From Isoetes taiwanensis (Eukaryota; Streptophyta; Lycopodiopsida; Isoetales; Isoetaceae): a DNA stretch of 64,000 bases. The stretch spans positions 1,603,700 to 1,667,699 of the forward strand of contig JAJEKV010000074.1 in the NCBI GenBank assembly GCA_021234155.1. The letters are read 5' to 3'. How positions within the stretch are numbered: the first letter of the stretch is position 1; each line of letters opens with the position of its first letter. Below, in pieces: positions 39,331 to 64,000 of this stretch. The translations under genes were made by a program, and so were the position numbers. A model generated the notes under the pieces. It was not told the origin of the DNA, ran no database searches, and saw only the letters and a list, made by a program, of their open reading frames with translations.

Positions 39331-39477
39331 CTCCTCCCTCGCCTTTTGGTGGGGGCGCTCTTAAGTAACGACTCTCGAAAATCAGCTGTTTTTCTTCTTC
39401 TTCATCTTACGTGCTTAGGTGCTGGAACAACAAATCACTTGAAAAGAATTACATCAATTTGGTTAAGTGTCAAAGAA

Positions 39478-42317
39478 TTACAATTTTATTGGGAGACTGG
39501 CCATAATTGTTTCATGGGTCTCCTGTTGCCTTCTATTTTGTCCATATCAATTTTAGGATATCTTACCACATGGCTGTGCACGGAGGCTTCGGGTTGTTTA
39601 GTGAGCAACATGTACTTGAAATTACCCAAGAATTGATAATACAGTCCACTTAAGATAACCTCATGCACTCCAAATTTTTGCCCCCATCCATCTTTGTATG
39701 AATCTTCAAGTGTGCATTTGCATTTGGGTTACTTGAGGATGTAGAAGTCCACACCCTCCACGAATTGTCTACCTCGGCATTCACCGCAAAATTGTCACCT
39801 ACCTCTACCGACATTCGATCCATTCATTGGCTTGTTCAAGAGTCTCCTTTTTCTTCTCAACTCCACGGTTTTAAGTCGGGTTACCTCCCACTTTCCAAAT
39901 CTACTGTATTGATGGGGAGTCCCAATTATGATCCATGCAAAACAAGCGTAAAACATGATGGGCATCTATGAGCAAGCCTGTTTGGTCTACTCCTGGCGGC
40001 AGTGCGATCATGATGAATCTTCTTTGTGCCTTTAAGTGTTTCAATTTCATATTCTTCTATGTTTGCCACAACAAAGCGGGGTTCAATTTCCCAAAAATAT
40101 CTTTTGATCTCATCTGTTTCATCAACTGGTAGCTGAAATGAAATATGTACACGAAATTTTACAATATCTTTAGCATGCCTCGGTTGTACACCATTGGGTT
40201 TGAGTTGTTCCTTACTTAGCGACCTTTTGATAGCGGCATCCGCACCATCATGTTCACCTTTACCATGAGCGGTGGGCAAAGTAGTTCCACACTATTTCCT
40301 TGTCATTCATTGTGAAGTACCCGCTAAAAAAAAAGTTTTTCGACTTGAATTGTGATGAGCGACCATCACTCCAAACCCAATGCTTCTCATACTCTATTTT
40401 CTGTTCCTTAAGGCATGCAACATGCTTTTGTAAAGTGTGTTCCACAAATAATGAGTCATGCACTTTATCATGAGAAATGTAAAAGTGAGTCTCTTTTACG
40501 ATCTTCCTACCATTGTTGAGTCTATTCCGACTGCTCCAATCTTACGTTCTTTTTTTTTTCTTCTTTGGCGGTCTTCTTACGTACGCCGCGGGGAACATCA
40601 ATATCGACACTTTTGTCATGTCTATATGTTATGTGAACAAGTATAGAAACTTGAGTGCGTATGCCGGGTGCATTGGTGGGGCTCATTCTAGATCTTGATC
40701 TTTGTAATTTTCTGCAAAGTCAATAATGTATACAATTGTATCTTACGGAAATGATGACACATTTTGTTTAAAAGCGATTGGCCCTGCCAATGTGCTATGT
40801 AAATTGTGTGGAACAAAATCGATATTACCTTCTTCACATCCTCTTGAAACTCTTTGGGACTTCTCTCCTTCTATACTAATCTCAAGACAGGTTTGTACCT
40901 CAAAGCCTTTCTTGGATCCCCGAATTCTCTGTCCTGGTCCACAGGTTGCTTTTGAAATGTCTTCCAAGTAACTAGTACTGAACCCGTGCCATCCATTTCT
41001 GTGGACATTTTCTAATTCTATCCAACCCACTTTTTTTACACGCCAACATCAAGCAGTTATGATCAAACCACTCCTCATCATCACCTTTGCTGCAGACCAC
41101 TTGTCTCCATAAATCACGGGTGCACTTGATTGTATGCTCCTTGGCTGCACATTATACGGGCGGGGCCACAAATCTCCAAGATGGCAGTTGCAATTGTCAT
41201 GAACTCCACCCGATTTTCTCAGTCGTTTCAATCCCGCATGATGTATTCAAAGTGGTAGATGCAGCAAACATGTATGCCCTCACGCATCCTCCTTACAAAA
41301 CTCGGTTTCAACCTCTCTCAAAAGTGCAATGCAATTTTGATATGAGGGTTCTCCTCTCTAAACTGAGAGGTAGAATTGCAGCTATGAGGGGAAATCGTGT
41401 GAATGCCAAATAAATGCTACATATAATGAACCCTACAATATAGGATGAATACTTACTTGGTGACTTCAAGAAGGTGAATTGGATGTTCCATCTTTATTCA
41501 CGTCTCTCGATACATACCTCCTCACGTCTTTCTTGTATGGAGAAACTCTTGTATTTTACGTCCGAACTTGATAATGACTTCTCTATTGTAATCTAACATG
41601 CTATCCATCCGCTTCCTCCTCCTGAACATTGCATTAGGGTTTTTTTGAGATTAAAAAAGGGCCTTCAAAACATGCCAACTAAGCCAAATGAAGATAAATG
41701 AACTACCAATCAGAAATCGAAACGGCGGTCCGGTCAGCAAAAGCATTATAACTAACTCTTTGGATCACATTTTTCTAGCATAACTATTGACCGAGAAAAG
41801 TCCAAATGAGCTCTCGTTTAGTGCAATAGATGATAGATCTCGTTGAGATCTTTCCAACCTTAGGTGCTTTGCACATATTTTAACCACTTATGATTGTCAA
41901 AACTCTAAAAAATATGGTTTTTATCATTTTTTACTATTCTACGGGTCTAAAAGATATGCAAACCACCCAAAGTTGGAAAGATCTCAATGAGATCTATCTA
42001 TTGCACCAAACAAGAGCTCATTTGGACTTTTCTATCAACACTTATGCTAGAAAATGTGATCCAGTGAGTTAGTTATAATCGCTTTTCGAATCGATTACCG
42101 CCTTTTTTTCGATTGATAGTTCATATAGCTTTTCAGCAGTTCTTAGAAGGCCCTTTTATGATCTCAAAAAATCCCTAATGGACCAAGGTCCTTCCCCTTT
42201 GTTAGCTTGCACCCTTCTTTGAAAAGCATTTGAAATTGTTTTTCTGGGGATGCTGAGCAATCTGGCCATTTCTGTTTGATTCAATGGCTTGACACCATTT
42301 GTACCTGCTGCTGCCAT
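39478..42317 (-). pseudogene. DDE transposase, copy A (with MITE in its 5' part)
   Basis: Order on the minus strand: N-terminal HTH-like segment MAAAGTNGVKPLNQTEMARL (42317-42200), foldback MITE (42180-41632), exon 1 (41635-41457; 'EAVIKFW', 'PYKKDVRRYV', ending EVSQ at a GTAAGT donor), an intron of about 70 bp, then the catalytic body. Copy B shows the body intact (49019-50934); here it is broken at many CTG/CAG-equivalent positions. The C-terminus 'GLYYQFLGNFKYML' matches version C 'GLFYKFLGGSRYEL'. The gene is probably less damaged in the real genome than here. Confidence 0.7.
41632..42180. mobile_element. Foldback MITE (about 550 bp, arms about 230 bp)
   Basis: CATTAGGGTTTTTTTGAGAT on the left pairs with the inverse of GATCTCAAAAAATCCCTAATG on the right. 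The arms continue as long imperfect inverted repeats (GGATCACATTTT, AGTCCAAATGAGCTC, GAGATCTTTCC) around a roughly 90-bp AT-rich loop. It sits between the HTH-like N-terminus and exon 1 of the transposase, where GPWS and NVQEEE would otherwise join. No clear target duplication. A partial copy is at 63838-64000, and an end at about 793-833. Confidence 0.75.
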
Positions 42318-45250: not shown

Positions 45251-45539
45251 AAATATTTATTTAATATTATTTAATAAATGGGTGTAAAATCGCTAGTGGG
45301 GTACAACTTTTGGCTTAAGCGCTTAAGCACTTTTAAGTGCTGAAACCGGGCGGACGTCGGTCTGCCACACCCTTCTCCTTCTTTTCCCCCGGGCTTCCGT
45401 GATCGGTGTTTCACCGCTGATGATGGAGGGATGGAGCGCGGATGATTTTCACAAAGATCGAGGTTCAGGCAATTCGGGGTGAAGCCCCACGAGGAAGAAA
45501 CTTGGTTGGAAAATAACGCCACGATCGAGATTGGGATTC

Positions 45540-47202
45540 CGTTTGGACAAAGAAGTTGAACAAGGGAAAGATAAAATAGCACCGCGGCAAAGGAGCATCA
45601 TCAAGAGAAGTTGGAAACACTATGTCTAAAAATCTACAAGAATTGTCACAACAATGAAGTAAGAAAGCAACTAGCCCTTTTGCTTTTTGCGCTTTGAAAA
45701 TTGCACTAGATCAATAGTTGCACCCGAGGAACACAAAGTAACCGGGCTGCATTTGTCAGGCAATGCCAAAGATACCACAACAATAGACAAGTAAAAACAG
45801 AGGCGATGTTGTAGCACATGTTAGGAAAACCGAAATGAAGACAAAGCCAAAGGTGGCAAAATGGATCAAATGAGATCGGTGCATGTGATGAAAACATAAA
45901 ACCTTAGAGAATGCAAAGATGTGAGATTGGAAAATCGGTTTTACTTATCACAAAGAATCTGGAAGCAAATGGGAAGTGAGCTGAAAAGGCAATGAGAAGC
46001 CTCTCAATTACGTAAAATGATGTTGGAAGAGGCCGAGAACGGTTTTAAGACAAAGCCACAAATGCTTTGGCTACAAAACAGAGGAGTTCAAGCTTAATCC
46101 AAACTGCGTGAGTTGGAGGCGTAAATCAAAGATTTGGAGGAGATCGGTATCGGATGGAAACTTGGCACAGAACAAGGTACAAAAAGCAATGAACCCTACA
46201 TCTGTTAATGAGCAGGTCAAATGTAAAATCAAACTTGAGGAGGAGTTAAAAGTTCTCGAAGACGAACAGAGACTTCTGCATTTCTACATAAACAATTTGT
46301 GGAAGCTGAAAATGGATACTCACGCAACATTTAGCATCTCTACTATTATACGAGATAAGTTGTTAGTGCAAGATCCATTTTATACATGTTCAGCATGTGG
46401 TCTGGAATTCACTAAAGCTTACAGGTGAAGTTTAGCACTGAATTGCCAACATGAGTATCATATAGCTTGTTGTTCATTGTTGAGAGGAGGACAATGTATT
46501 CATGGTTGCCCCGAAAGGTGCCGAGGGTGTATTTGACGAGCTAGGTTTTGGCCATCTTGCGGGTGCTTCAAATAGTACACCAAAAAAGGATGTGTTAATC
46601 GTTCCGCAATTGAGGTCTCACCCTATAGGGGTTCAAAGAAGGACAATGGTGCCATTTGAAGATGCACTACACCCAAAAGTCCTATAGGAGTACAGTCAAT
46701 TGTGGACCGATTTGAATGCAACAAACAGAACCACCACCACCAGTCCAAGAAGTCTGTCCAAGAAGCTATAGAAGAAGTGTAAACACAAAGACCAGGTTGT
46801 AAACACAACCGGTTGTGGAAAAACAACAAAACAGGATTGTACACAATGAAGCACCTAAGGAAGTTGAGGGAGTAATTCCATCGGATGAGGGGCAACTTGG
46901 GTGAATATTTGCCAAAAGGAAAGGGCGTAAGAACAAAGAGGGGTAAGTCGGAGGATAGCAAAGAAGTTGTTCAAAGCTACAAGAAAGAGAACAAGAAGTA
47001 GCTATGCTAAAGATGCAGGAAGCGATCTCAATCATGACACCACACCTATCGAAGTGTATTCGAAGAAAATGCAGAATCAGGCCCTCAAGTTTCAGGTGAG
47101 CCTGATCTTCAACAAGTGATTGACGCCCTTAATAATCCTGGAAAGTCAGTGTGGAAATTGCTGGCCAAGAAGGCCACAACTAAGTGTTGCTTAAAACATT
47201 GA
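45540..47202 (+). pseudogene. Accessory coiled-coil/zinc-finger protein, copy B
   Basis: The best-preserved stretch is 46108-46428, a coiled-coil segment (VKCKIKLEEELKVLEDEQRL) followed by 'FYTCSACGLEFTKAY'. In the next frame comes 'NCQHEYHIACCSLLRGGQC'. Together they form a CxxC...CxH...HxxC...CxxxC RING/PHD-like zinc site. 'FDELGFGHLAGAS' follows, matching 'LDELGFKEL' of version C. It ends at TGA 47202. Confidence 0.62.
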
Positions 47203-47419
47203 ATATTATTGATTTTCTTTTGTTGCATTCACTGTAAGATTACCGGGGTTGATTACGTTAGGTCAGAGAATCCTGCTGTTGATACAGAAAGGTTTCCACA
47301 TTCAACCCATTTTTCATTTTCATTTTCATCTATTTATTCATGTAGTAATTCCTGTTGTGTAGGTATTCAGGATGTTTCAACGTACTAAATATTGATTTGG
47401 CAGCAAAAGATAAACTCAT

Positions 47420-47950
47420 TGTCTTGGATTTAAATGGCATTTGGTGCAAAAACACATACGCTTGGAAGCAGGATTGACAATGACATACACCAGCGAAAAG
47501 AAAGTGATATTCGGCACTGTAGCGTTGTTCTTCTTGAAGACTTTGTTACGTATGTTGTGTTGGTATATGGTCATCAATGCAACTCTCTAATGTTCACCAC
47601 CCTAACAAACCGGGGCTGTCCACCATGATGAAGCCACTTGGGAAAATATATGAGTCATACCCAAGATTCAAAGGTAAGACTTTGCTTCTTGATGATTCAT
47701 TATACAAGTCTTACCTTAGATCCCGGAAACTTCTCGCTAGTACCCGATTCAAGATGGATATCTATGATGAAGTGCTAACAAGACTCACCCCAAAGATAGA
47801 AGAAATACCGCAGGCCAAGACCGAGGAAAAATGAAGTTACTGGGTGAAGAACACACACGTATACAAGCCCTGCCTAAGACAGATGATAGAAAGATTATGA
47901 AGCTATGCTTGAAAGACTTTTTCGAAAACAATAGCGCGGTTGAGGGTTTG
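47420..47950 (+). pseudogene. FCP1/NIF-like phosphatase reading frame, copy B
   Basis: Same motifs as copy A (LDLNGIW, KPLGKIYESYPRFKGK, TLLLDDSLYKS), but more broken. Changes against copy A fall on CAG/CTG words (CCCTGG to CCCGG, TTCTGC to TTCTCGC, ACCTGC to ACCCG). The damage is therefore probably technical. Confidence 0.6.
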
Positions 47951-48224
47951 TGAATGAGGAATTGGAGAAGGTTTATGGTGATGAACTTTGTCATTCTCCA
48001 TTACTGTGATTAAGCCTGAGACATTTATGATTATTGGCCTGATTGTCATTTATTTAGGCCAAGGAATCCTACACTTTTCATGTACCATCTTTATCTTAAT
48101 TTAAGAATGTTTTTGCTATATTGTATATATAGTTCAATGCAGACTTGTCTATAAGTTTTTGCTATATTGTTTATATCTACTTCAATGCTGACTGCAAGGG
48201 ATGCTTAAAACTTATCAAGTGCTT

Positions 48225-48830
48225 AAAAAAAAAATTGCCTGCAAGTGCTAGTCTGGTATGAGTCTTAATGGCAGATACTGCTTACTGTCATGCAGTGACA
48301 GTTACTAAGTATGTAGTTGCTTAACGCTAGCAGAAGTGTTAATGTCATCAAGTGCTTACTGTCATGCAGTTAAGGTGCAGTGCTTGCTGTTAAGCTATAT
48401 AACTGTTTAAAGCTAGTCAATTTTATTGCATAAGTGCTCGTGTGTTCCAAATTTTTACTCACAAGCGCTGAAACTAATTAAAGTGCTTAGTGTTTGAAAC
48501 TAATTAAAGAGCTAAAGAAATTACATTCAAGCGTAATCTGAATGGATTTGCACAAGAATTCAAACTTCATATATTTGATAGATAGACAAAATAACATTTG
48601 ATAGAGAAACAAAAAACTTTGATAGAGACAAAAAAAACTTTGATAGAGACAAAAAACTTTTTATATAAACAAAATTTTTTACAAAAAAAAAGGCCCTCAG
48701 GCCAGTGTCTTCAGGATATAAACAAATTTTTTTACAAAAAAAAAGCCCTCAGGCCAGTGTCTTTAGGGGGGTGTCTTCAGGGGGGTGGGTATCTTCAGGG
48801 GGATGTCTTCAGGGGGGGCTTTAGGGGCTT
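48225..48830. repeat. Repeat-rich intergenic block, copy B
   Basis: AAGTGCTTA-type words, then the TTTGATAGAGACAAAAAAC minisatellite (48590-48660), then two copies of a roughly 57-bp unit with TTTTACAAAAAAA and GGCCCTCAGGCCAGTGTCTT (48665-48770), then GGGGG-TGTCTTCA repeats to 48830. Confidence 0.6.
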
Positions 48831-49018
48831 TCTGGTTCGGACTCGGGCTCACTCCACACATTCTCCTCCAATTTCTGCCTCCTCTGCCTTTTGGTGGGGC
48901 TCAGAATAAACTCTCTAAAAATCAATTTGTTTTTCTTCTTCTTCATCTTACTTGCTTAGGTGCTGGAACAATAAATCACTTGAAAAGAATTACATCAATT
49001 TGGTTAAGTGTCAAAGAA

Positions 49019-50934
49019 TTACAATTTTATTGGGAGACTGGCCATAATTGTTTCATGGGTCTCCTGTGAAATTTTGTACATGTCTGTGCCTTCTATTTTG
49101 TCCATATCAATTTTAGAATATCTTACCACATGGTCAGTACCGGAGGCTTCGGGTTGTTTAGTGAGCAACATGTACTTGAAATTACCCAAGAATTGATAAT
49201 ACAGTCCACTTAAGATAACCTCATGCACTCCAAATTTTTGCCCCCATCCATCTTTGTATGAATCTTCAAGTGTGCATTTGGGTTCTCAGGCACTTGAGGA
49301 TGTAGAAGTCCACACCCTCTCAATTGTCTACCTCAAGATTCACGCAAAATTGTCACCTACCTCTACCAGATTCGATCCATTCATTGGCTTGTTCAAGAGT
49401 CTCCTTTTTCTTCTCAACTCCACGGTTTTAAGTCATTTACCTCCCACTTTCCAAATCTACGTATTGATGCGGGAGTTCCAATTATGATCCATGCAAAACA
49501 AGCGAGTAAACATGACAGGCATCTATGAGCAAGCCTGTTTGGTCTACTCCTCACGGCAAGTCTGACATAAGTGAATCTTCTTTGTGCCTTTAAGTGTTTC
49601 AATTTCATATTCTTCTATGTTTGCCACAACAAAGAAGTTCAATTTCCCAAAAATATCTTTTGATCTCATCTGTTTCATCAACTGGTAGATCGCTGAAATA
49701 TGTACACGTAAATTTTACAATATCTTTAGCATGCCTCGCTTGTACACCATTGGGTTTGAGTTGTTCCTTACTTAGCAGCCTTTTGATAACAAAGATCGCA
49801 CCATCATGTTCACCTTTACCATGAGCGTGGCAAAGTAGTTCCACACTATTTCCTTGTCATTCATTGTGAAGTACACGCCTAAGAAAAAAAAAGTTTTTCG
49901 ACTTGAATTGTGATGAGCAGCCATCACTCCAAACCCAATGCTTCTCATACTCTATTTCACATTTCCTTAAGGCATGCAACATGCTTTTGTAGGCAGTGTT
50001 CCACAAATAATGAGTCATGCACTTTATCATCAGAAATGTAAAAGTGAGTCTCTTTTATGATCTTCCTACTATTGTTGAGTCTATTCCTGATCTGCTCCAA
50101 TCTTCTGTTCTTTTTTTTCTTCTTTGGGCAGTCTTCTTCTGTCTGCACAGGAACATCAATATCAGCACTTTTGTCATGTCTATATGTAATGTGAACAAGT
50201 ATAGAAACTTGGTCTGTATGCCAGTGCATTGACTGGGGCTCATTCTGGATCTTGATGCTGTAATTTTCTGCAAAGTCAATAACAGATACAATTGTATCTT
50301 CTGGAAATGATGACACACACTGTTTAAACTGATTGGCCTGCCAATGTGCTATGTAATTGTGTGGAACAAAATCTGATATTACCTTCTTCACATCCTCTTG
50401 AAACTCTTTGGGACTTCTCTCCTTCTGTACTAATCTCAAGACAGGTTTGTACCTCAAAGCCTTTCTTGGATCCCTGAATTCTCTGTCCTGGTCCACAGGT
50501 TGCTTTTCAAATGTCTTCCAAGTAACTAGTAATGAACCCGTGCCATCCATTTCCTGTGGACATTTTCTAATTCTATCCAACCCACTTTTTTTACACGCCA
50601 ACATCAAGCAGTTATGATCAAACCACTCCTCATCATCACCTTTGCTGCAGACCACTTGTCTCCATAAATCACTGGTGCACTTGATTGTATGCTCCTTGGC
50701 TGCACATTCTGGGCCAGGGCCACAAATCTCACAGTGGCAGTTGCAATTGTCATGAACTCCACCCGATTTTCTCAGGCTGTTCAATCCCTGCATGATGTAT
50801 TCAAAGTGGTAGATGCAACAGCATGTATGCCTCTCACGCATCCTCCTTACAAAACTCGGTTTCAACCTCTCAAAAGTCTGCAATGCAATTTTGATATGAG
50901 GGTTCTCCTCTCTAAACCTGAGGTAGAATTGCAA
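49019..50934 (-). CDS. DDE transposase, copy B (long catalytic exon intact)
   Basis: A 325-codon open exon from 50934 (after a CTGCAG acceptor) to 49957. It holds LQFYLRFREENPHIKIALQ, a Cys/His-rich block (CCCIYHFEY, HDNCNCHCEICGPGPEC), 'DHNCLMLACKKSG', 'SVIDFAENYSIKIQ' (first Asp) and 'RKIIKETHFYISDD'. After a frame change near 49960 come 'SDG..SQFKSK' (second Asp), 'AHGKGEHDGA' (about 49830) and 'DEIKRYFWEIE'. The C-terminus 'GLYYQFLGNFKYML' ends at TAA 49019. Exon 1 lies at 63835-63660, beyond the 12.65-kb insertion. It is a cut-and-paste type nuclease by its motifs; I cannot assign a superfamily with confidence. Confidence 0.75.
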
Positions 50935-51094
50935 CTGCAGGGAAATCGTGTGAATGCCAAATAAATGCTACATATAATGAACCCTACAATATAGGATGAA
51001 TACTTACTTAAGCACAATTTCATTAATTATGGACAATACCTGAATTTATGGACCATTTTTTAGTACACTTGGATGAATGACTCATTTTCATACA

Positions 51095-54000
51095 CTAGTT
51101 GACATCCCCTGCGAGTGCTGCATATGCCTCAGCAGCATGCACGGGTATCTTAATAGTATTAGGTATCTTCTTCTTGTTTGATGGCTCCCAAGCGTAGTCG
51201 ATAGTCTCCACTTCTATGCGGTCACTTGCAGTTGTTGGCCTCCATCTCTTCTTCCAGCAATTGGCATAATTAGCTGGGTAGACTTGGTTCCTCACGGGAT
51301 TGGCTCCCACCAAGTCACCGAGAATAGTCTCAAAGTTCTCCTTCTTATCATCCATTTGTGGGTCCTCAAGAGCTAGGCCCACCCAAGTTGGGCACAACTC
51401 ATCATCGTATGCGTGCCATAATAAAACATACCTTTCTTCAAATCTTTGTATGGGTTGAATTCGATGACGGGTTTGTCCTTCGGGGGCCGACATAAGGAGG
51501 AGTGATAGTAGCAATTGGCTCCACCACTATAGCTACATGAGGTGGAGCTTTGTGCTTGCCTAGTACGCGGGCCGAAGTCATTATAAGTGCCTTCACACTG
51601 CTGATGTTCCCGAGTTCTTGCGGGAGTTTCATCCAATATTCAATCGTGGCCGTGGAACTGTGCCGAGTAGTTGGCGCTTCGAGCACCTTTGTTAGACGTT
51701 GAACAAGCAACCCAATGCAATATATGCTTGTGGATCTTGTTCGCGAAGAAAGCCAAGGTCCTTCACCGATTTCTTGGGAGGAAGCGACTTTTAGGATATC
51801 AATTGGCATCATGGGCTTCCGTCCTCTTTTTCTTTCCACATCTTTATTCCACCAAACCAAACCAATCCGTAAGTGGGTCTAGTTTTGTAATACATGATGG
51901 CCAATCACCATTCATAGCGAATCTGAAAGTTAGAGTGGTATGACTGTCAATCTATCATCCCCATCTGGTATGTAGCCTTCTATAAAACCCTTCCAACTGG
52001 AACTTTGTCAACAACATAGGGCACAGGTGTATTCAAGTTGCATTTGTGGAATTCATACAAGAGTTCTCGGCATTGTGAGCACCTCTTGCCTTCTTTAAAG
52101 ATGTAGAGAAGTTACCAAACAAGGCATCGATATCATCATGTGTGTGATGGGGCATCATGAACCCTAGCTCAATCTCTTCAAACACACCAAGATATACTAG
52201 GTAAGAAAGATAGGAGAAGACATACCTATTCTTGTTACGTCAGATCGTTGTCCATTTTGCAAATAAAGTATCTTGGGCAGAGGCTTCAATGATGGTCCCC
52301 GTGTGGCGCGTGGCAAATTAGCAAGTGTTTGCTGGTATTGGATAGTGACAACTTTGACTCCAAGGCCGTTTGTGTCTCGCGAATGAGGAGACCCATTTTG
52401 GAGCAGATGTTTTGATCGGCGGTGGCCTCCGCATACTCGTGCCCCATCTCTAATCTCTTCAAGATCTTTGTTCAAAGAACCTACATGGAAGTTAGAGTCA
52501 TCCGCCATAAGTCCAGGCAAAGTTTCCATAGGATCCATTCCCATGACCATGAGTCAATGCACCGATCAATGTTGTTTTCAGCTTGTCAAGTCTCGAGAGA
52601 CTTCCGCATTGTTGCAATTTTGGAATCATTGTTTTGGCTTGATCCATTTTGTCGTGAATAATACAAAGATATTGGTAGGGATACTGTGGGGAGTATAATC
52701 TCCACGACAAGATCTTGTGTGCGACACGAGGCCTGCTCCAGTCTATGCGCTCTTCTTTCATCATGCAACACCCTCCTCTCTCCTTCATCTTTGGTCTTCA
52801 GTAACTTCGTACGGATCACCTCACATGTATCGCATTTGGAGAATGCAATTTTCTTTGCGATACTGACGTCCCGGAAGCTCCGCCTCCACGTTCTATGAAA
52901 ACACATCCGGTGATACCTTCTTGCGAATCAATGCCACAACCTCTGCATTAACCTCTTCTAGAATCTTTGGACTTCGTAAACATTGCGGGCAACTTCTCGA
53001 CATTCTCTCTTATCCCTCCTCGTTTTCCCCTTTGCGGTGGGGCAAGGATTCACCGATTCTCCTTCACGAACATGGAAAACACGGCCTCACATGCCAACGT
53101 CGAGGAGGCGAGGCTTCAAGGTGCCACAGTTACCATGTTCGGCCCTTTGCACCCTCAAGAAATTGGGCCTTCCATTTCAGATACACCGAGTTTGAGATCC
53201 CGAGACCAAGGTACCACGCCCTTTCGCAAACGAGATTCCCCCGGCAGCACCAGACTACCGTCCCACTCTTCGACCTTTCATGTTGTTGGCGAACATGTCA
53301 TAAACAAAAGTAACCCTATCACTTGATTTCATGGCTAGGAATTCCTTTCAAGATGTTAACAACTTCATTAGTAGAGAACCCGACGCAACACCTATTCTTG
53401 CAACACAAGGTCCTCCCCAGAATCGAGGATAGCATTCTCGAGTGGTGAGACGAGCAAGCTTTGGTGGCCTAACAACCTTCTGGGCTGGGGGAATGAAAAG
53501 TGTAATGTCGTTTCTCATAATTTGGGTGGTTCCGATGCTCACGAGCTCCCCGGCTGGACACAATATCTGGGCTTCTGTTGCGGTCTTTGCGGTCAATATC
53601 TCGAGACCTTTATCCCCGTTAACACAAACGAGATCATTGCTCCATCTCACGAAAGCATCCCCCCGCCCGGCACCTGCAAGCAACCCCGGCAGCGAATGTT
53701 CTTCGTAAAGGAGGGAAACCTTCGCGATTCTGAATACTCCCACAAACTTGAAACCCGAACCGGGTCACAAATCGCATCATCGGGGCGGTGAAAGATATGA
53801 ATCCCTTTCCGCGATGATAATGGAGTCGCGATGAGTGCCATATCTCACAATCCTTTTCAAGAAGGGTATATCTTGTCGTGGTTGTGTCTCCTTCCCCACC
53901 TCTTTCCTCACTGTCTTTTTCTTTGGGGACGTCATTAGCTTGGCGACTCACGAGCATCTTCACTTCTCCAGAGAACCTAATGAGCCCCGGCTTCTGCTAT

Positions 54001-54399
54001 TGTGCTTGCATCTGGAGTTGGCCAAGGAAGGGTATGGTGGCCTTCGAACACTTCCTCCACACCTACGCTCACTAGTCCATTCGATATCTCCTTGAAGTGG
54101 CATTGTGTCATTTGCCCCACAACTCCCTTTGCTACTAGATGTTCATTAAGGAAGAGATACACAACCTGCACAAGGATTTCAGTAGTGTTAAAATCGAGTA
54201 AGGAAGACGAGAAAGCATTGCAAATGACCTGGGGGGATTCCCATTCAATGGTTACAAGGACAATGAAATTGGGCGGGTGCCCTTTTTTACATTTGAGGTC
54301 TTTAGATTCCCCTTGTGTAGGGTTAGTATTGGATGCAGTAAGTCTCACAATGGGTAGAAAAGAAGCTTCTCGCTCTGAACAGGCCATATCCACGCACAA
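51095..54399 (-). pseudogene. DUF7869-type DDE transposase of the 12.65-kb element
   Basis: Coding pieces line up along about 3.3 kb. N-terminal part (54399-53977): unrecognised, with 'VVYLFLNEHLVAKG'. Middle (53963-53348): 'DCEIWHSSRLHYHR', 'GELVSIGTTQIMRNDITLF'. Catalytic part (52906-52100): zinc-ribbon-like 'FSKCDTCEVIRTKLL', 'YLCIIHDKMDQAKTMIPKL', 'LTHGHGNGSYG', 'NFHVGSLNK', 'ILYLQ-MDN' and 'FMMPHHTHDDIDALFGNFS'. These are the DUF7869 hallmarks (HDxMDxAK, QxDN, HTHxDID). C-terminus (51514-51095): 'VETIDYAWEPSNKKK', 'IPVHAAEAYAALAG'. The frame changes often; most breaks look like CAG/CTG errors or introns. Confidence 0.72.
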
Positions 54400-54835
54400 A
54401 TTGGGCGCCCGCCCAATTTGTTCTTGGTGGTAGAAGAGCTGTAAAGTAGGCAGACACTCGGCGCCCGCCCAATTTAGTTGTCACCAAGAGAAAACACATT
54501 CGAGATCTGATTAGCCCACCCTACGGTTTCATATCATCGGTCATCTACACAAGGGGACAATAAGGCGTGCCCAAGTTGTCCCCTTTGTTGCAAATTAGCG
54601 GCCGCCCAATTAGAACCGAATGAGGCGCTTATATAAGGGTAGTATTGATGATCAAATCTCACAATGGGTACAAAAGAAGATTGTCGCCACGAGCAGGCCA
54701 TATCACAAGACAAATTGGGCCCAGCCCAATTTGTTCGTGGGTGGTTAAAGAGTATAAAGTAGGCGGACACACTCCGCCCAATTTAGTTGTCACCAAGAGA
54801 AAACACATTCGAGATACAGTTAGCCCACCCGGACA
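54320..54835. repeat. About 200-bp direct repeat, spacing about 314 bp
   Basis: TCTCACAATGGGTA..AAAAGAAG at 54343 recurs at 54657, and similarity continues through GGCCATATC, a TTGGGC/GCCCAA palindrome, AAAGTAGGC, GTTGTCACCAAGAGAAAAC and TTAGCCCACCC. Both copies carry two palindromes of the element-specific type. Confidence 0.75.
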
Positions 54836-55089
54836 GTGAGCCCACCCGGTCCCTTTCTGTAGATGAAACTGAAGGAGGCAGACACTAAAAGAAGTAAGGA
54901 GGCCCGGAGACACTCACTGGAATTTATCATCGAGCTACCAAAACAAATACAATCGAGCATTGGAAGGGCCTGACTACAAACAAGGGTTAATGGAGAAAAT
55001 AGCCCTCACACAATTCCTGCACAACAATTTCAGGAAAAGGACGGACTGCATGGAAACTTAGAGTTTATGTAAATGTGACAGTAACCAAG

Positions 55090-55210
55090 TGAATGATGGG
55101 GAGTAAATGAACAGGCGCCATCGAAAGGGCGTGAATGAAGAGGTGTGAATGAAGAGGCGTGAATGGAAAGGTGTGAATGAACAGCCGTGAATGGAAAGGC
55201 GTGATTGATT
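55090..55210 (+). repeat. GTGAATGAA minisatellite (unit about 16-17 bp)
   Basis: Six to seven units of GTGAATGAA-GAGGC or GTGAATGGAAAGGC in tandem, between the two divergent genes of the 12.65-kb element. No coding signal. Confidence 0.75.
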
Positions 55211-56289
55211 ACATCCCTTCACATCACATTTGCGGCAATTACACATCGAGGTATGGCGAATTTAACTGGGAGCAAAGACGAACCTTTGGAGATTTCAACA
55301 ATAAGCGACCATGAGTATGAATGTTGAAGATGTTTTGCGTCTTGCGAGAAAATATAGTAGCCAAACAAAACCGAGAAAAAAAACAACAGGTTCGAACCGC
55401 ATTTGCATTTAAACAGAATTCCCCAAAATTTGAATGTAATTTCCCCCATATTTTGAAAGTTAAATGTCCCACCTAACAAGTAATAATGTTTAGGCCCGGA
55501 ACTTTTAAACACAAATCCCGCCTAAAGCACGCGGCGACACGCATGACTCGAAAGTTAATTTTGGGCGGGCTATAAATGACAGATTTGAAATTCAAAATCT
55601 CGGTGCACTTATTATTAAGGTCCACAATTAATTCCTCACGCTCGAACCCATCAACGGTCCATTTTTTTTTTAAAAGGCCAAACTCTTACATGCACGACAC
55701 TTGTCTTCGCGTCATGAAAGGTCCATAACCCTTTAAAAGCCCCTCATTCTCCACTATTGCAGATTTAGAAACTTCAGGCTTCTTTGGCGCTTTTGTGGTG
55801 CTTTTAATGTTGTCGCCTTCATATTTGGTAGCCACGAAAGTCTTTCTCATCCCTATCCCTGTCACAGACTATACTCCCGAACGGTGTGTCGGATCGAGCA
55901 CTTGGCGCCTTTGTGTTTCTCGGCGCTTGTCGCCATCCCATTGGCGCCTTCCTCTCTTCATTGTCCTATCGCCTCGGGTACCCCTTTACAAAGAAATCTT
56001 AGCAGTTGATGGCATCTCGCCCCCACCACAGAGGCAAAGGTAAGCCGGACTACTTTCTTAATAGAAACTTGAGCTACCGCAAATGATTGAGTATCCCGCT
56101 ATTGCATCTCGGAATTTGGGCCGTGGCTGACATATTAACATCTTCTAGATGCCTCATCGGGTCCCCACAAATGCAAACCTCGCGGTGCGTAATCTGAATA
56201 GGGCACCCAATTGCTTCCGGTGGAGGGTCTTTAGTTTGCAAGACATTGGACTTTTTCCCTAACACCAAAGTGGGCGGACGCCCAATTTA

Positions 56290-56480
56290 CTTATCCCTAA
56301 CACCAAAGTGGGCGGACGCCCAATTTGCCTATCCCGAGAGCATTTTAACTTCCTTGGAAGGTAGATTTCATAGACTAATCAGCCCGCCCAATTTACTCTA
56401 CCCAAGTCTACCATCCTAGGAAATCGTGCTCTCCGCGATAGGCAAATTGGGCGTCCGCCCACTTTGGTGTGAGGGATAAG
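56290..56480. repeat. 44-bp inverted repeat around a 103-bp loop
   Basis: 56290-56333 (CTTATCCCTAACACC...TTGCCTATC) is the inverse of 56437-56480 at 43 of 44 positions. Each arm holds one GTGGGCGGACGCCCAA palindrome, so the arms could form a long hairpin or cruciform. Confidence 0.85.
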
Positions 56481-56532
56481 TAAATTGGGCGACGCTTCTT
56501 GGTATGCGAGGGGATTCGGGACAAATGGGCGG

Positions 56533-56830
56533 GCCCAATTTGGCCCCTACGATGGAATCGTCTCCTCAGCCGCAAGGCTCACCATGAGTTCAGCCGAGTA
56601 AATTGGGCGGGCGCCCAATTTGGTGTGCGTAGGGACAATCCAAATTGGGCGGACGCCCAATTTGGCCCCTGTGATGCAGTTGTCTCCTAAGCCCCAAGGC
56701 TCACCATGAGTTGAGCCGATGAAATTGGGCGGGCGCCCAATTTGGTGTGCGTAGGGATCCGGCCAAATTGGGCGGGCGCCCAATTTGCCTCCATCATACA
56801 ACAGTCTCTTCAGCCCCAAGTCTCCCAGGT
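56533..56830 (+). repeat. 122-bp tandem repeat, about 2.4 units
   Basis: Units start at GCCCAATTTGG (56533), 56655 and 56778. Each unit has CAAGGCTCACCATGAGTT, a palindrome, GGTGTGCGTAGGGA and a second palindrome. The last unit is partial and runs into the acceptor before the plus-strand gene. Confidence 0.8.
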
Positions 56831-56863
56831 ACTAACATTACTTTCCGTTCTGCAGGAATTAAT

Positions 56864-59800
56864 ATGGCGCGAACAAAAGACGCCTCGGGTTCGATCAGGA
56901 CCCAAATTTGCGAGAGGCTATTGCAATAGAGGATGCAAGAACGTAAGAAGAGAAAGAACTGCTTTTGTTCGGCATCCGTGTTGTGCCCCATGAAATTTTG
57001 ACGATTTGCCGAGGAATGGGTCCGTGCATAGAGATATGGAACATTCATCCCGGGTCCCGGACAAACCACCTCAAGGATCTTTTGCTTTTCTTTGGCAAGA
57101 TAAAAAGGGGAAAAATGAATTCGGTAATATCGTCATCGACATGGAGGAGGTCTCGAGAACAACGATGACTTCCTCATCGATGTTGAAGACACCGTAGATC
57201 GGACTTTCGTCCGTTATAAAGTTCCACTTTCTAAGTACGAGCCATGTATGATGAGCGCAAGTATAAAGGAAAGCCCACATTCTTGCGCCCAGAAAGGATG
57301 GGCGCTAGACTCATATGAAAGTTTAGAGCGATCGGGAATCAAATCAAGAACTGATATCTTGGATGGCTACTACGCTGTCAGGCAGTGGATATTAGAACAC
57401 AAACAGAACAGGTCGAAAGCACTGTTCACGGAGTATCAGGGCAAAAACCAACCTAAAGTATACGATACTAAGTGGCTTAAGTCTAGATACAAGAAAGGTG
57501 AGGCAAAGACCTAGCGCAGGGGGCAGCGCCATGGAGACCGGATACAACAATAAAGAAGGCGAGGACACCACGCTAAGGCTATTCAATCGAAGTCGCCACT
57601 AAACTTGTATTCGTGGAATGAAGAGAATATCAAGGTCGCCCGAGGTGAGTGCAGAAGAGGACCAGCCGTCTGAAGAGGAACCCCCTAAGCGCAGAGGAAA
57701 AGATTTAGGTGGTCCGTCCAAGAGGCGCAAGCGGGACATCTTATCACAGAGCCCAAATAGTTCGGAGAGGGAGTCCTTGTCTGCTTCTTCATCTGAAGAA
57801 CGGGATAGTAGCCGGCAGATCGTGAAGTTCACTCCATCTGGTGGCGACGCCACCAGAGAGCAGTATATGAGTTGTCACGTAACGCCATAGCAAGCATCAA
57901 GCACGTGGAGAGAATCTACCCTCCGGGGTGGGCTTCGAGATTGAAGTCGATGTGTTCAAGATGCATAAAGCCCCGCAAATATGACTTGTAGGGTCATAAG
58001 TCCAGTAAGCACTTGGACACTCTCTACGAATCGTTTATCGCCCATCGATGCACCCTCCCCGGCCGATGTCACGGTCGATTCGATGCGAGAGGCGAGGCGA
58101 GCAATCAAGTGGAAAAAGGCGGAGGACCTGCAAAATGCAGAATACTGGATTGTCAATGGCAACCATACGACCACGATTGCTCAACCGCTTGTCACACAAG
58201 CTTTGGCATGGCCTCTGAAAAAGGAAGCACTTGGCGAGCCCGATATTCTTTTCTATGCCAAAAAGGAAATGCCGAGTCCTCGCAGGAAATCTCACAAAGA
58301 ATCGAGTGCGTTCGCCGGCCGGAGAATAATGACATAACAAAGAAGACTATACACGAAGAAGTATTCTTGAAGAAATTCAGCAGCCTTCAGAACGATTGGG
58401 CATTCTATGGGAAGCCTAAGAAGGGCAAACGGGCTGGGTCGGTGGAGCTTATTACGTAAGTGCACTACCACCATTACTTCGACGGTTTCGTGCTATCCAC
58501 TAGTTGAAATTGGGCCCGCCCAATTTCAGCCCTGCTGGCACTCTTTTTTCAAATTGGGTTTCCAATTTCGAACGGCCGCAAATAGGGCCGCCCAATTGAA
58601 ACGCTCAGGAAATTGGGCGCCCCGCCAATTCACGAGTGTCGGATGATCCGAAATTGGGGCTAACGGCGTCGGCTAGTGCAAGCAAATTAAGATGATGTGT
58701 ATCGCCTTTATCCGGTGCCTTCGATTGTCATGCGAGGATTGGAAAGTCAGAAGGCAAGCGATTAAGAAGTCAACTATGCGTGACTCGACTACTTTGTATA
58801 TCTTGGCAATAGTCGTGGAATATGTGCACCGAAGTTGCCCGGTTATTCTACTAAGACCGGTTGAAGGAGGATGAAGGGAGAAAAAATTGAGGTGAAGGAT
58901 AGGCTTAGACTTTTCACCAATAATTCGTCGCCCATTAAAGTCCATGCATCCTCTAGATCTGCAAAAGGTCTGCTGAAGGAGATCAAGGATGGCACCACAT
59001 TCTGAAGGGAAGCAAGGATTATCTTGGGAGACGACTATGAAAGTCGAGGGAGAGTGAAGAAGATTGGAACAATGGAGCGGGCCCTTGTCGATACATGAAG
59101 GAAGTGAAGAAACTTCCTTTTCAAGACATGGCTGCCTTGAGGCAAGCTCACCCCATATTCCGCGGAGAATCTGATGCTTATGTTCGCAAGTAGCATCGGA
59201 GTGGATGGGCGAAAGGGCCTTAAAGAGATGGAGAAGGAAAGCTTTTCAGGAGTCCCTCTACAAAGAAAGTATATCTTCTAGGGCGGTTGAGGAGGGTGGC
59301 AAACCTTTCAAGTGTTTCCACGTTAGTCCGCGAGGTTTGTGCGTGGGCGTGGTAAACACTTCGCCCGCTTCATTGGGATGCGACTTCAGATATACGAAGA
59401 AATGGCCAAAGGAAGATTATGAAAAATTCCTTGACCCGCCTAAGCACGATGATGCAGACCCGGCGGCTTTCTTTGGGTAGCTATATTTATTACCCTGGAC
59501 CGCCTCAATGAGTGCCTATCCGCCATGAAGACAATAGACGGTGGCAGGTGTTTGGGTTGGTTCCTACCGGGACCCCGGCGAGCTGCGACTACCTCTAGAG
59601 TTCGAGAGTTGCAATGTCTTGTCCTGCTAATGTATGTTGCCGAGACGCATGGCCTCGCCATCAAGTCTGAGGAAATAAATATTTGCTTCGGCCAATTCCG
59701 ACCATCCAAAGCAATATGCTAAGTTTCCCAAGCATTTCTGAGAAAAAGCAGGGACATCGAAAAGAATTTGCACGATCCGCGAGTGCAAAGCAGTATGCAT

Positions 59801-60750
59801 TTTAAATTGGGCGCCCCCAATTTGCTTGTTGACTATCAATGTTTCTAACATTTGTTTTCCCCGGCTTATTGGTTGTATCGACCTTGGTGCGACAAGGGTG
59901 CGGCGGGGGGGAGGATCTTGGTGCAAAATGTTAGTTGGAAAGTAGGGGCGTGCACCTATCTAGTACGAAGTTGATCTTTGGAAGGTTGCCTTTGTTTCCG
60001 ACTTCTTTTCGGTGGTGCTTTTTAGCCGACGCGCAAGTCGCGAGGGCTATAAAACATTGTCTTTTGAGAGATGCGAGAAGCTGAAAATTAAGCTTGTGCA
60101 TGGATATTCGAGCAACTTCGATGTCATGTTAGGCGAGAAAAATCAAGAGCTCGGGCACTCTGAGAAGATAAAAGAGGGAAAGAAGAAGGCCTCTACTTCC
60201 AAAAATGCTCCTCGGCCTCGACTTCACGCCCCTCGAGACACCTTGTCCGTTCTCGTCTACAACCATAAATGAAGTGCAATCAATTCGAGACGGGACAAGA
60301 GCGATTCAAGTAGAGCTCAAAAAGGGCGTGGCCTTAGGCTCTCGGGATTTGGAACTATTTAGGAGAAGAAAAAACAACATCAACGCCTTTGGCGAGGGGC
60401 GGGGACTGGTGAATACTCGGGGACATGATTGAGGCGACCTCAAAGTTCGAGGAAGAGGTTGCTAGGGAGCCCCGACTGTCGTTGTCATGGAAACACAGAA
60501 GGGGACAATCAGGGATGGAGAGGATGTGGTCCCCAACACGATGAGCGATCAAGATGTAGAGGAAGAGGTGGCGAACACGTAAGACAATCAAGGTGCGGAT
60601 GATGAGAATGAGGAACTGGGGCCCAAGATTTTATGCAAAGAATGGAATTGATCAAAGAGGCAAAGACAACAACAACAGCGGCCAAACATGGAGAACCCGA
60701 AGAGGGATCATCAGGAAGATGTGCCTCGCACGAATGGCGACTTATGATTT
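56864..60750 (+). pseudogene. Unrecognised plus-strand gene of the 12.65-kb element
   Basis: Starts MARTKDASGSIRTQICERLL at 56864. Coding-like pieces follow in changing frames: 'FGNIVIDMEEV' (57120), 'GWALDSYESLERSGIKSRTD' (57298), an acidic/basic linker rich in Ser, Glu, Lys (57618-57890) and 'VDSMREARRAIKWKKAEDLQ' with 'AEYWIVNGNHTT' (58075-58180). Later pieces are 'VKDRLRLFTNNSSPIKVHAS' (58890), 'CFHVSPRGLCVGVVNTSPAS' (59310), 'CLSAMKTIDGGRCLGWFLPG' (59510) and 'KTLSFERCEKLKIKLVHGY' (60050). WIVNGNH loosely recalls ParB-like nuclease folds; that is weak. Palindromes at 58505-58640 and 59803 probably mark introns. Function unknown. Confidence 0.5.
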
Positions 60751-63659
60751 GAAAATACGTGAAATATGTTAATAACAATTGTTCATACTTCTTTTCAGAA
60801 ATGATAACGTTGCACTCATTTCCTTGTCTTAAATTTCTCTAGTTTATTTTTTGCTAACCAAATTGGGCGCCTTAATTTGCTAACCAAATTGGGCGTAGAA
60901 TTTGGTTAACCCTTAGAAACTATAGCCTTTTATTAAATTTATTTGATTTCGCTATCCTCCGAGTAAATTGGGCGGCCCAATTCTTGGCGAAGTAAGCGCC
61001 ATCAAACATGAAGTGAAGTGGAGCCTGCGTAAAACATTGGAGATCAAAGAGCGGACCCTCGGGAATTACTCAGCACGTTACATTATATAATATTGACTAT
61101 GCTTATTACATCCTTACAACATTATTATATCCTTGTCGGTACATTAACATATCCGAAAGTGTACAAAGAGTCACTTTCGTCGTCAGCTTACCCGCCAAGG
61201 CGATGCCATTCAGCTCAAAGATCCAGCGATCGGGAAGCCAATACTGGTGGACCACAACACGAAAGTGAGCTTCCCCGCAATTACTCGCAGTCCATCCGCT
61301 TTGGACTGGAGCCATGGATCAAGACTAACACCGGTCATATAGCAGCCGCAAATATCGTTGTAACTCAAGTAGCACTTGAAGGATCCGGATGTTCTCGGAC
61401 GATCCGACAAAGGAAGCCATGAGAGATGAATGCAAAGTGGGAGCCGCTTTTTATAGTCGTGAGAAATTATTGATGTCAATTATTGGCGTACATTTCATAG
61501 CAATGTAACCGGTATAAGGTACACACAATGCGACCCGCCGAGGGTGGGCGCCGCCCAATTTCGGCGCATCATTCGATATGAGCATTCAAGGGGGGCAAAG
61601 TGGGCGCCCAATTTCGGGACATGTTGGACAAGTTGCACATATAGAAGACAAGTTGTACTAATACTTTATCTCATAGATGATTCTGATCGATTACAACAAG
61701 ATGACAAGCGTTCATTTAGGGGGACTCTTACGGAGTCATTTTCACCGAGCACCCGGTGATCTTCTCTATCATGTACATTTGATGCTCTCTATTCCATATC
61801 GGATGGATGATAACGTCGAAGGATCAGGATAATGGCGAGGATTTAGAGCGTGTGGTCATCCGGTCTTCCATGGGTATCTCTCGCATTTCAACGCCTTTGC
61901 TTGAAGTTTTCGTGATTCATCTTGCGGTTGATGGAATCGTTCGAGGACGAATGAGAGCACATGGCTAGGCGAAGGCCAAATTTGATGGTCAAAATTGGTT
62001 TGAGATATATTTATACCCACAATCATTATTGAAGGTATTATGCGCATAAAGATTATTGGATGTACACCGTATATACAACCAATAATCTTTGCTGAGTAGT
62101 CATCAATAATTCCTTGGCTATAAATATAGGCTGCATTCGACGCGACAAAGACATTTCATTGCCATGTCTCGCCATCTTCCAGGCCCCATGTTGACACCCT
62201 TACTTGCCTTATGACCTATGGCGATCTTTATGCTGCGGAGTTGAAAGGGATCTCTCGATCCCCGGCGTATGGTATAGCCTCTTGGTGAAAAGAAAGACTC
62301 CCGTGAGTATCATGTTACTATCCATATTGTGTGGGTTCGGGCGAGGCTTTTGAGATTAATAGAATCACCAATAATTACAATCTATGACTCATGTATTTAA
62401 TAACTTTATATGATATGATGATGTAAGCGTGTTGTCCATGAATCGGTTGTTATGTTTCGGTTCTTATCTTCGGGTTTCGATCTACGTTTTTCGTTTTCCT
62501 TTTTTGCAAGCAAGAAGGAAAGTGGGCTGGCGCCCTATTTTCCTCAAAGCGGAAGCCTTCATGCAACTAGCTTCAAGCCATCGAAGGGCAAAGTCGGCGG
62601 CCACCCCCGCGGGCGCCCATTCGAAGGGAAATTGGGGCGCCCAATTTCCTCGGGGAAGGAAATTGGGCGGTAATTTCTGCCCTGGAGGCCTCGATATTCT
62701 TGTTGAAATTGCACGTCATTGGGCTGTTCTCAATGTAGACAAAAAACATTCTATTCATATAGGAATGGAGTACATGGATGGATTACGTAGATAATAATAT
62801 CAACTAAACAACATGCCTCGAAAAGAGATAGTTGAATGAAAGATAATATATAATAATAGATAATATTAAACATAGGCGTTTGGTCAATATCCGAGTTCCC
62901 ACCGCAATTAGATCCCCGGTTGGAACTCTGTTATGGCTTGTCGGCGATCTGAGATCCGACCAGATCATCCAATTCTCCCATCGGATAGGGAGTCTTGAGG
63001 ATGAGTTTAGATTACCAAAGCCACCACCATTTGCCTCTTTTCCTTCTTGTAAAGCTTCTTAAACAACGGCCGGGAAAGTGTTGTGCAGCCAAAACATCCT
63101 CCATTTTCAGCAACCTCTTGAGCTTACGCCTGTAAATATGGCGTTTCAAGGAAATCAAAGCGACCTTCGGCTCTACCTGGCGAGGTGATCAGGCTCATCG
63201 CCGTCCTTCATCAACTCTCCGCCGAAGGAGCTTCACGAGTTGGCTTCTCATTTCGTACATTGCCATTTTGGTTTATCTCGTTACGCACCTCAACTTTGAA
63301 GCTGATTAGCGCCCATGAGCTAATATTGGCTCGGCGATATAGCCTTTGCATTTAAGCTCATTGTGAATCCATCGCTGCTTTGGTTAGGACCATTCGGTGG
63401 ACGACTATTAATCTACACTATCGTTTCGCGAATGCGGTACAGCGTGGCGAGACTCCGATCTCTGAAGAAGCTTGGAGACACAAACTTCGGTTCGCACTTC
63501 TTTGGCTTAATAGATACAAGGCCTGCCATCTCACCTACCTGCACACATTTCGAAAATTTGCATCATTCTACTAATTAAAACCCTTATATTCTAAAAAATC
63601 GGGTCCATTTGGGAGTCATATGGACTCAGCCAAAGTCCACAATTAATGAAATTATGCTT
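60751..63659. other. Right arm of the 12.65-kb element, no gene recognised
   Basis: Scattered short frames on both strands without recognised domains. Palindromes occur at about 60860, 60885, 60964, 61545, 61597, 62519, 62610 and 62655. The right TIR ends at 63659. Confidence 0.45.
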
Positions 63660-63835
63660 ACTTGGCTGACTTCAAGAAGGTGAATTGGATGTTCCATCTT
63701 TATTCCTGTCTCTGATACATACCTCCTCACGTCTTTCTTGTATGGAGAAACTCTTGTATTTTCTGTCCAGAACTTGATAACAGCTTCTCTATTGTAATCT
63801 AACATGCTATCCACCCGCTTCCTCCTCCTGAACAT
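63660..63835 (-). CDS. Transposase copy B, exon 1
   Basis: Reads MFRRRKRVDSMLDYNREAVI, then 'KFWTENTRVSPYKKDVRRYV' and 'HPIHLLEVSQ', ending next to a GT donor at the insertion point. It is in phase 0 with LQFYLRF at 50934. The equivalent in copy A is 41635-41457, where the same exon is broken by CTG/CAG-type changes. The N-terminal HTH-like segment would lie beyond the window, past the foldback MITE. Confidence 0.7.
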
Positions 63836-63837
63836 TG

Positions 63838-64000
63838 CATTAGGGTTTTTTTGAGATTAAAAAAGGGCCTTCAAAACATGCCAACTAAGCCAAATGAAGA
63901 TAAATGAACTACCAATCAGAAATCGAGTCTGGCCCGGGTCGGTCGTAAAAGCTGATATAACTAACTCACTGGATCACATTTTCTAGCATAACTATTGACA
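63838..64000. mobile_element. Foldback MITE, left arm only (window end)
   Basis: CATTAGGGTTTTTTTGAGAT at 63838, then the same arm as 41632-41790, up to the window edge. Confidence 0.75.

Follow-up and report, generated by a model that had tools for sequence, protein, structure and literature searches.

A DNA transposon of 12.65 kb in the lycophyte Isoetes taiwanensis carries, beside a DUF7869-type transposase gene, a partner gene whose protein, in better-preserved copies, starts with the tail of histone H3 lacking lysine 9 (K9). The best explanation for the whole, to which we give a probability of about 0.55, is a terminal inverted repeat (TIR) transposon with an anti-silencing factor that displays this tail. 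Plant transposons are silenced by DNA methylation and histone marks, and to our knowledge few counter-measures encoded by the transposons themselves are known. The conserved H3 tail, together with DNA of the element's own that is filled with palindromes, offers a direct test of transposon escape by histone imitation. It is the partner gene (gene 2) that appears to be new. The element occupies positions 51010-63659 of the window, i.e., the whole stretch of 64,000 nucleotides that was analysed, and its features are listed in Table 1.

Table 1. Features of the transposon and of its empty target site (positions refer to the window).
Feature	Position	Strand	Basis
Target site without insertion (tandem sister copy)	41449..41458	.	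flank alignment
Left copy of the target site duplication, ACTT	51006..51009	.	window sequence
Left TIR, AAGCACAATTTCATTAATTATGGAC	51010..51034	+	end alignment; fetched copies
Transposase gene, frameshifted in the window copy	51098..54370 (limits approximate)	-	window spans; ORFs of other copies
Predicted DUF7869 catalytic region	roughly 51880-52700	-	match of the corresponding ORF in copy c5
Motif cluster (AAATTGGGCG / CGCCCAATTT), upstream of the transposase gene	54268..54775	.	motif scan
Densest motif cluster, immediately 5' of gene 2 and in part made up of a 122-bp tandem repeat	56279..56777	.	motif and repeat scan
Gene 2, several exons, frameshifted in the window copy	56864..60750 (end approximate)	+	N-terminal and C-terminal comparisons
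Palindrome motifs, probably intronic (gene 2)	58517..58612	.	motif scan
Palindrome motifs downstream of gene 2	60862..60967	.	motif scan
Single or paired motifs	near 59806; 61552-61605; 62638-62662	.	motif scan
Gene 3, ~170-200 aa	62803..63417 (limits approximate)	-	ORFs in copies c14, k2 and k3
Right TIR	63635..63659	-	end alignment; fetched copies
Right copy of the target site duplication, ACTT	63660..63663	.	window sequence

An earlier note on this DNA had proposed a large TIR transposon with exact ends, and these ends were confirmed: the TIRs match at 23 of 25 positions, ACTT stands on both sides, and the site is uninterrupted in the tandem sister copy. The left flank (42342-51009) is 92.8% identical to positions 32776-41458 in the alignment with this sister copy, and the right flank (63654-63999) was aligned to its positions 41449-41791. 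The genome was searched for further copies with both ends, and at least 21 left-right pairs, each on one contig and strand, were found among the candidates scored (for the left end 40 out of 643 from a first look, for the right end 40 out of 298). Twelve pairs span 12.40-12.66 kb and nine span 14.1-37.4 kb. A perfect 4-bp target site duplication (TSD) at identical end points is present in 19 of the 20 pairs that were fetched, and the remaining pair has three of the four TSD bases and an altered last element base; an identical flanking 4-mer is expected by chance at about 1/256 per locus. Second loci thus exist and the end points do not differ, the two matters on which the earlier note had staked its boundaries. 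The first 35 bases are the same in all 20 fetched copies, which were chosen from 100%-identical left-end matches. The 4-bp repeats are also perfect in two additional full copies (k1 and k2), a distant family (k4) has the TSD CATG and a TIR beginning with AAGCACAATTTCATTA, and the TSD of family k3 reads as 5 bp (CCATT). Eleven aligned copies of the same family as the window copy are 85.5-93.2% identical, with 3336 single-copy vs 1485 shared gap states and 2877 single-copy vs 2163 shared substitution states; the shared states indicate that subfamily structure also exists.

The minus-strand gene had been taken to be of the DUF7869 type, and a profile search bears this out: the corresponding ORF in a sister copy of the element (c5) matches PF25273 with an E-value of 6.6e-40 and that of family k3 with 5.7e-40 (137.2 and 137.4 bits, respectively, vs a curated cut-off of 26 bits). 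The same search of single ORFs of the window gave no match. The transposase ORFs comprise 716 aa (k1), 997 aa (k3) and 1136 aa (k4), and D-131/133-D-39-D motifs are constant in these three families, the third motif reading HTHDDID; catalysis by the DUF7869 transposase is predicted on such sequence grounds. None of the papers covered by a literature search on DUF7869 contains the term, and the family here gains a genomic context: it sits in a mobile element with defined borders and a target duplication of constant length. We are nearly certain that the element at 51010-63659 belongs to the cut-and-paste class of TIR DNA transposons, duplicates 4 bp of its target and encodes, next to two accessory genes, a DUF7869 transposase of predicted DDD type. 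The two divergent genes of the original description require amendment: the divergent partner gene stands and recurs in other families, and the count of two does not, there being at least three genes, with the third near the right end. This third gene is also found in family k3, and a profile search with it returned no family above the cut-off. Nor is the window copy the complete autonomous element that it had been called, as its reading frames are interrupted. The interruptions may represent residual assembly error or real decay; the published I. taiwanensis assembly was built from nanopore reads and polished with racon and pilon (PMC8566536).

In better-preserved copies, gene 2 starts with M-ARTKQTAR, which is the histone H3 tail without K9. 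A sample of 22 N-termini was compiled, 20 of them chosen from alignments beginning at residue 1, plus those of k2 and k3; 19 read MARTKQTAR, two MARTKSTAR and one MARTKQTCT, and in the 21 with MARTK(Q/S)TAR, H3 position 9 is occupied by V, M, L or A, never by lysine. The alignment starts at query residue 1 or 2 in 85 of 128 gene 2 matches. The exact coding pattern for MARTKQTAR is present in only three (c4, c14 and k2) of 13 same-family copies (the 11 aligned ones plus k1 and k2); the start reads MARTKDASG in the window copy and MARIKQTAR in k1, and gene 2 of the k4 family has no MARTKQTAR-like start. Between k2 and k3, all nine N-terminal residues are equal and seven of the nine codons differ, and the following 89 aligned residues are 52% identical. 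Selection on the tail therefore acts at the protein level, and this comparison of predicted products shows that the H3-identical N-terminus is conserved as protein.

The C-terminus of gene 2, examined in related families, is weakly DNA methyltransferase-like. The family phrog_3008 matches six of 11 C-termini (best E-value 2.1e-4) and PF01555 three of 11 (best score 19.6 bits, under the Pfam cut-off of 26.7), the Pfam methyltransferase matches spanning the motif I region only; NCBIfam returned just an unrelated weak name in two of 11. When the C-terminus profile was compared with the PDB, a synthetic PPR protein ranked first (E-value 0.0047, no stretch being significant by itself), ahead of RsrI methylase (E-value 0.079). 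The catalytic motif of N6/N4 DNA methyltransferases, (D/S)PP(Y/W), is missing at the position judged equivalent, where 10 of 11 aligned rows have D-x-R or D-x-K and the other has HAR. Merely two short matches to the C-terminus (E-value 2) were obtained among phages and no close relative among viral contigs, both being collections without plant genomes. A ParB identity of the central domain, prompted by an NGNH motif, found no support in eight tests: profile searches gave no match to the ParB/sulfiredoxin superfamily, comparison with the PDB gave no match, hhalign to YbdM yielded a probability of 0.3, and a PF02195 search of genome G000 produced a single match below the cut-off (E-value 1.49), the control being found in 11 of 14 genomes. 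Profile tests identified no DNA-binding domain in gene 2, and no close relative of the central domain was present in bacterial, archaeal and viral contigs (collections without plant genomes). Two unnamed PHROGs families match the central domain weakly (best E-values 0.0059 and 0.0093), as does a nucleoporin Ig domain in three of 18 members (best E-value 0.0031, below the cut-off).

The motif ATTGGGCG occurs 30 times within the element and not once in the remaining 51,350 bases of the window, and of the window's five full palindromes, four lie in the cluster that immediately precedes gene 2. Across the genome, 2720 sites of the full palindrome were counted (control, 0), and some of those listed are solitary. 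Only two of 46 motifs in k3 and one of 33 in k2 fall inside the approximate coding intervals. The k4 family carries AAATGGCGCC in place of the window-type motif, and the perfect 14-bp palindrome stands at one location only in k4.

With slightly less than even odds, gene 2 encodes a sequence-specific anti-silencing factor, its DNA binding and its role being inferred. The protein would bind the palindromes (AAATTGGGCGNNCGCCCAATTT) packed in the introns and intergenic DNA of its own element and would show the exact H3 residues 1-8 without K9; the displayed tail could engage or tie up readers, writers or erasers of the H3 tail, and the element would stay unsilenced. H3 residues R2, T3 and K4 are read by PHD-type readers. 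These positions are intact in all 22 selected N-termini, and the TSD 4-mers are without consensus across the insertion sites of the 20 fetched pairs, so that targeting could be via chromatin; both observations would suit a tail that steers integration or transposition by recruiting host H3-tail readers to particular chromatin instead of counteracting silencing. We consider such steering unlikely, since the tail is borne by the partner protein and not by the transposase, and since it leaves the dense motifs in the non-coding DNA of the element unexplained. The palindromes might also be binding sites of the transposase, with gene 2 as a transposition cofactor that resembles H3 without any consequence for chromatin: motifs and transposase co-occur, the k4 family has other versions of each than k2/k3, and large transposons with many internal repeats provide a parallel. 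This, too, is improbable, as the window copy has no motifs in the first 3.2 kb or the last 1 kb of the element, where transposase sites would be expected, and as nine residues kept with different codons in N-termini of such divergence demand a reason. It is more doubtful still that the H3-like start was captured from the end of a histone gene, possibly from H3-like genes of other repeated loci, and merely inherited: the tail coding pattern does occur 1888 times in the I. taiwanensis genome, with most sampled occurrences in other proteins, some with an H3 fold, but the codon differences between k2 and k3 are synonymous, and an H3 query aligned to gene 2 loci by its tail only (residues 1-37 at most, E-value >= 0.19).

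Other repeated loci of the genome carry H3-like histone sequence, and at one of them a Ty3 gag follows downstream. Among 20 occurrences of the MARTKQTAR-type coding pattern that were sampled (every fifth of those listed), 17 represent proteins other than gene 2, and a histone H3 fold lies downstream in four of the five of these that were examined further. We tentatively propose that mobile elements of this lycophyte acquired the H3 tail repeatedly, as a means of countering silencing, namely as a K9-less tail on a DUF7869-transposon protein aimed at the element's own palindromes and as H3-like histones in other repeated elements. If true, such repeated uptake would account for nearly all 1,888 H3-tail patterns in one genome and would represent a chromatin-level arms race through histone imitation.

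TSDs are 3 bp long in CACTA and PIF/Harbinger elements, 8 bp in hAT and about 9 bp in Mutator elements. Those of Tc1/mariner measure 2 bp (PMC10741241). The 4-bp TSD without consensus fits none of these five groups, and the ends of the element read AAGCAC, not CACTA. The Sola superfamily, reported from the moss Physcomitrella, is described as having a 4-bp TSD, a DDD transposase, variable TIRs and members of more than 15 kb (PMC10741241, PMC9033089). Compared by description only, the element resembles Sola in its large size and its 4-bp TSD (19 of 20 copies, the window copy, k1, k2 and k4), whereas the cited passages on Sola mention neither an H3-tail partner gene nor palindrome arrays. Its transposase core matches the DUF7869 (PF25273) proteins, a Pfam name that carries no function. 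The VANDAL transposons of Arabidopsis are Mutator-like, with a long TSD and a different transposase, and we know of no H3 tail in their VANC proteins. VANC proteins are described as binding short, fast-evolving motifs that lie densely in the non-coding DNA of the VANDAL transposons encoding them, and as removing marks of silencing (PMC5735166, PMC10398659). The likeness lies in dense, short, family-specific motifs, partly in tandem, in introns and upstream DNA beside a partner gene (PMC5735166). DNA binding is demonstrated for VANC, whereas gene 2 is likened to it by motif architecture alone. No transposon-encoded histone-tail mimic or transposon-borne histone H3 was described among the literature matches listed (titles and abstract starts, with subscription papers mostly outside the search). 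Histone mimics are non-histone proteins with a short exact histone-tail sequence, such as G9a and viral proteins. Gene 2 shares the short exact tail with them but carries it at the protein's actual N-terminus and without K9, and it belongs to a multicopy DNA transposon.

The window element belongs to a family of terminal inverted repeat (TIR) elements that has moved with a 4-bp duplication. Its ends, its duplication and its empty site had been proposed in an earlier note, and all were borne out: the TIRs match at 23 of 25 bases, ACTT stands outside each end, and the tandem sister copy runs on without interruption at the equivalent place. The genome (1,658,258,908 bases, 1,110 contigs) was searched with a 91-base query for the left end, which gave 643 first-look candidates (40 scored, all with 100% identity), and a 100-base query for the right end, which gave 298 (40 scored, 97–100% identity). 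Among the scored matches, left and right ends pair on one contig and strand at no fewer than 21 places, and the 21 pairs comprise 12 of 12.40–12.66 kb and 9 of 14.1–37.4 kb. Junctions were read at both ends for 20 of the 21; 19 of these share the same ends and have identical bases in the four positions directly outside them, while the other pair agrees in three of four. The duplicated 4-mers have no common sequence across the loci. Eight of the longer pairs were fetched; each is flanked by a matching duplication, and they are therefore best read as single insertions holding extra internal DNA. Two more full copies of the same family, k1 and k2, carry the duplications ATTG and CTTG. The ends are also common to two related families, k3 and k4. 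Copies diverge from one another by 7–15%, with many gaps confined to one copy, which may be due to assembly error or decay. The features are listed in the table.

Features of the window, of related families and of other loci with an H3-like tail
Feature	Location	Strand	Description
Element	window 51010-63659		ends of the TIRs
Gene 2	window 56864-60750 (approximate)	plus	partner gene
Gene 3	window 62803-63417 (approximate)	minus	near right end; ORF of about 170–200 residues; common to copies c14 and k2 and to family k3
Empty site	window 41449-41458		tandem sister copy
Host duplication	window 32776-41458 and 42342-51009		8.8-kb tandem duplication, 92.8% identity, hosts the insertion
ORF in host duplication	window 49960-50967	minus	336 aa; no Pfam match
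Repeated blocks	window 10382-27986		several, 0.65 to 5 kb, 90–98% identity
Long open frames	window 2698-4464	minus	nearly all F, S, P, L; probably simple-sequence DNA
k3 element			TIRs match 25/30; CCATT on either side (5-bp duplication)
k3 palindrome array	L093 8860-9001 into L094 1-532		ten full palindromes
k4 element			10,126 bases; TIRs begin AAGCACAATTTCATTA; CATG on either side
Tail and H3 fold	L137, L138, L139, L140		contigs C68, C3, C35, C113, respectively

The minus-strand gene of the window element has a reading frame disrupted by indels, and ten single ORFs from the window had no match in Pfam. Its proposed DUF7869 identity is supported by the equivalent ORF of copy c5, which matches PF25273 (E 6.6e-40); a 997-aa ORF of the related family k3 does so at E 5.7e-40, and the transposase of a second related family, k4, shows 59% identity. 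The conserved acidic motifs HDKMDQ, LDN..GQNKN and HTHDDID are spaced by 131 or 133 and then 39 residues in k1, k3 and k4. The protein has at least 130 matches in its own genome (127 of 13,245 candidates scored), several of them in open frames that reach or exceed roughly 1,000 residues. We infer that the DUF7869 protein is the transposase.

The partner gene, gene 2, carries a conserved histone H3 tail. In copies c14 and c4 it starts with M-ARTKQTAR-VPG (plus strand). The N-terminal 313 residues have at least 128 matches in the genome (127 of 2,277 candidates scored), reaching as low as 44% identity and with open frames in many of those scored, and the alignment begins at query residue 1 or 2 in 85 of the 128. 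Among 22 N-termini, comprising k2, k3 and 20 picked for alignments beginning at residue 1 (a choice biased toward conserved starts), 19 read MARTKQTAR, two MARTKSTAR and one MARTKQTCT. Independent of that choice is the contrast between k2 and k3, where seven of the nine tail codons differ and all residues are equal, and the following 89 aligned residues are 52% identical. Position 9 of H3 is lysine; the 21 N-termini that keep MARTK(Q/S)TAR have V, M, L or A there instead. The exact tail is legible in 3 of 13 same-family copies and altered in the window copy, k1 and others; no H3-like start was seen in gene 2 of the k4 family.

A DNA pattern encoding MARTKQTAR is present at 1,888 genomic sites, compared with none for the reversed control. 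A sample of every fifth of 100 listed places (n = 20, low-numbered contigs only) contained one ordinary histone H3, two copies of gene 2 and 17 other proteins. Five of the latter loci were read further, and in four of them the tail is followed downstream by an H3 fold (tblastn, E 1.7e-27 to 5e-6); the fifth, L141, showed no convincing H3 fold (tblastn, E 0.051). In all four a long insert separates tail and fold, and the two never lie in a single open frame as assembled (0/4), the frames being interrupted. A piece of L138 matches PF00125 (E 9.8e-14), and L137 has a Ty3-type gag ORF about 2.3 kb past the H3 fold (Retrotrans_gag, E 6.7e-17; Ty3_capsid, E 1.6e-15). The four appear to be repeated loci carrying H3-like histones. 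An ORF that looks similar to the gag ORF is present in L140.

The central domain of gene 2 contains an NGNH motif invariant across nine aligned sequences; profile searches gave no convincing match and did not support a ParB identity. In an alignment of 11 sequences from related families, the C-terminus weakly matches the DNA methyltransferase profile phrog_3008 (6/11, best E 2.1e-4) and, around motif I, PF01555 (3/11, best 19.6 bits, under the cut-off of 26.7). Against PDB, its profile found first a synthetic PPR protein (E 0.0047, without any individually significant stretch), which we take as chance, and second RsrI methylase (E 0.079, at motif I). In 10 of 11 rows D-x-R/K stands at the putative position of the catalytic DPPY, so methyl transfer would not be expected of this protein. 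Gene 3 had no family match above cut-off.

The motif ATTGGGCG is dense in the window element (30 occurrences) and absent from the remaining 51,350 bases of the window; the full palindrome AAATTGGGCGNNCGCCCAATTT occurs five times in the element. Counted irrespective of element copies, the genome has 2,720 sites of AAATTGGGCGNNCGCCCAATTT vs none for the reversed control, and those listed are mostly clustered, with a few solitary. Only 2 of 46 motifs in k3 and 1 of 33 in k2 fall within coding intervals, which are approximate. The tandem array of k3, with identical palindromes at 71–73-base spacing, probably sits in a gene 2 intron. The k4 loci (L095, L096) contain no ATTGGGCG; instead AAATGGCGCC, counted together with its complement, occurs there 23 times, and a perfect 14-bp palindrome is formed at a single place.

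The gene 2 protein may bind the palindromes of its own element, a DNA binding to which domain searches lend no support, and its tail might engage host proteins that act on the H3 tail, with the outcome that the element would escape silencing. The missing K9 could suit a tail unable to receive the silencing mark.

The 4-bp duplication and putative DDD transposase are compatible with Sola, a TIR superfamily known from mosses (PMC10741241; PMC9033089) to which the element may belong. The partner gene is unusual within an element of otherwise known kind, and the literature searches turned up no transposon protein bearing an H3 tail. As in the Arabidopsis VANDAL transposons and their anti-silencing VANC proteins, a dense, non-coding and family-specific motif adjoins a partner gene; there, VANC21 binds YAGTATTAY and methylation is lost (PMC5735166; PMC10398659).
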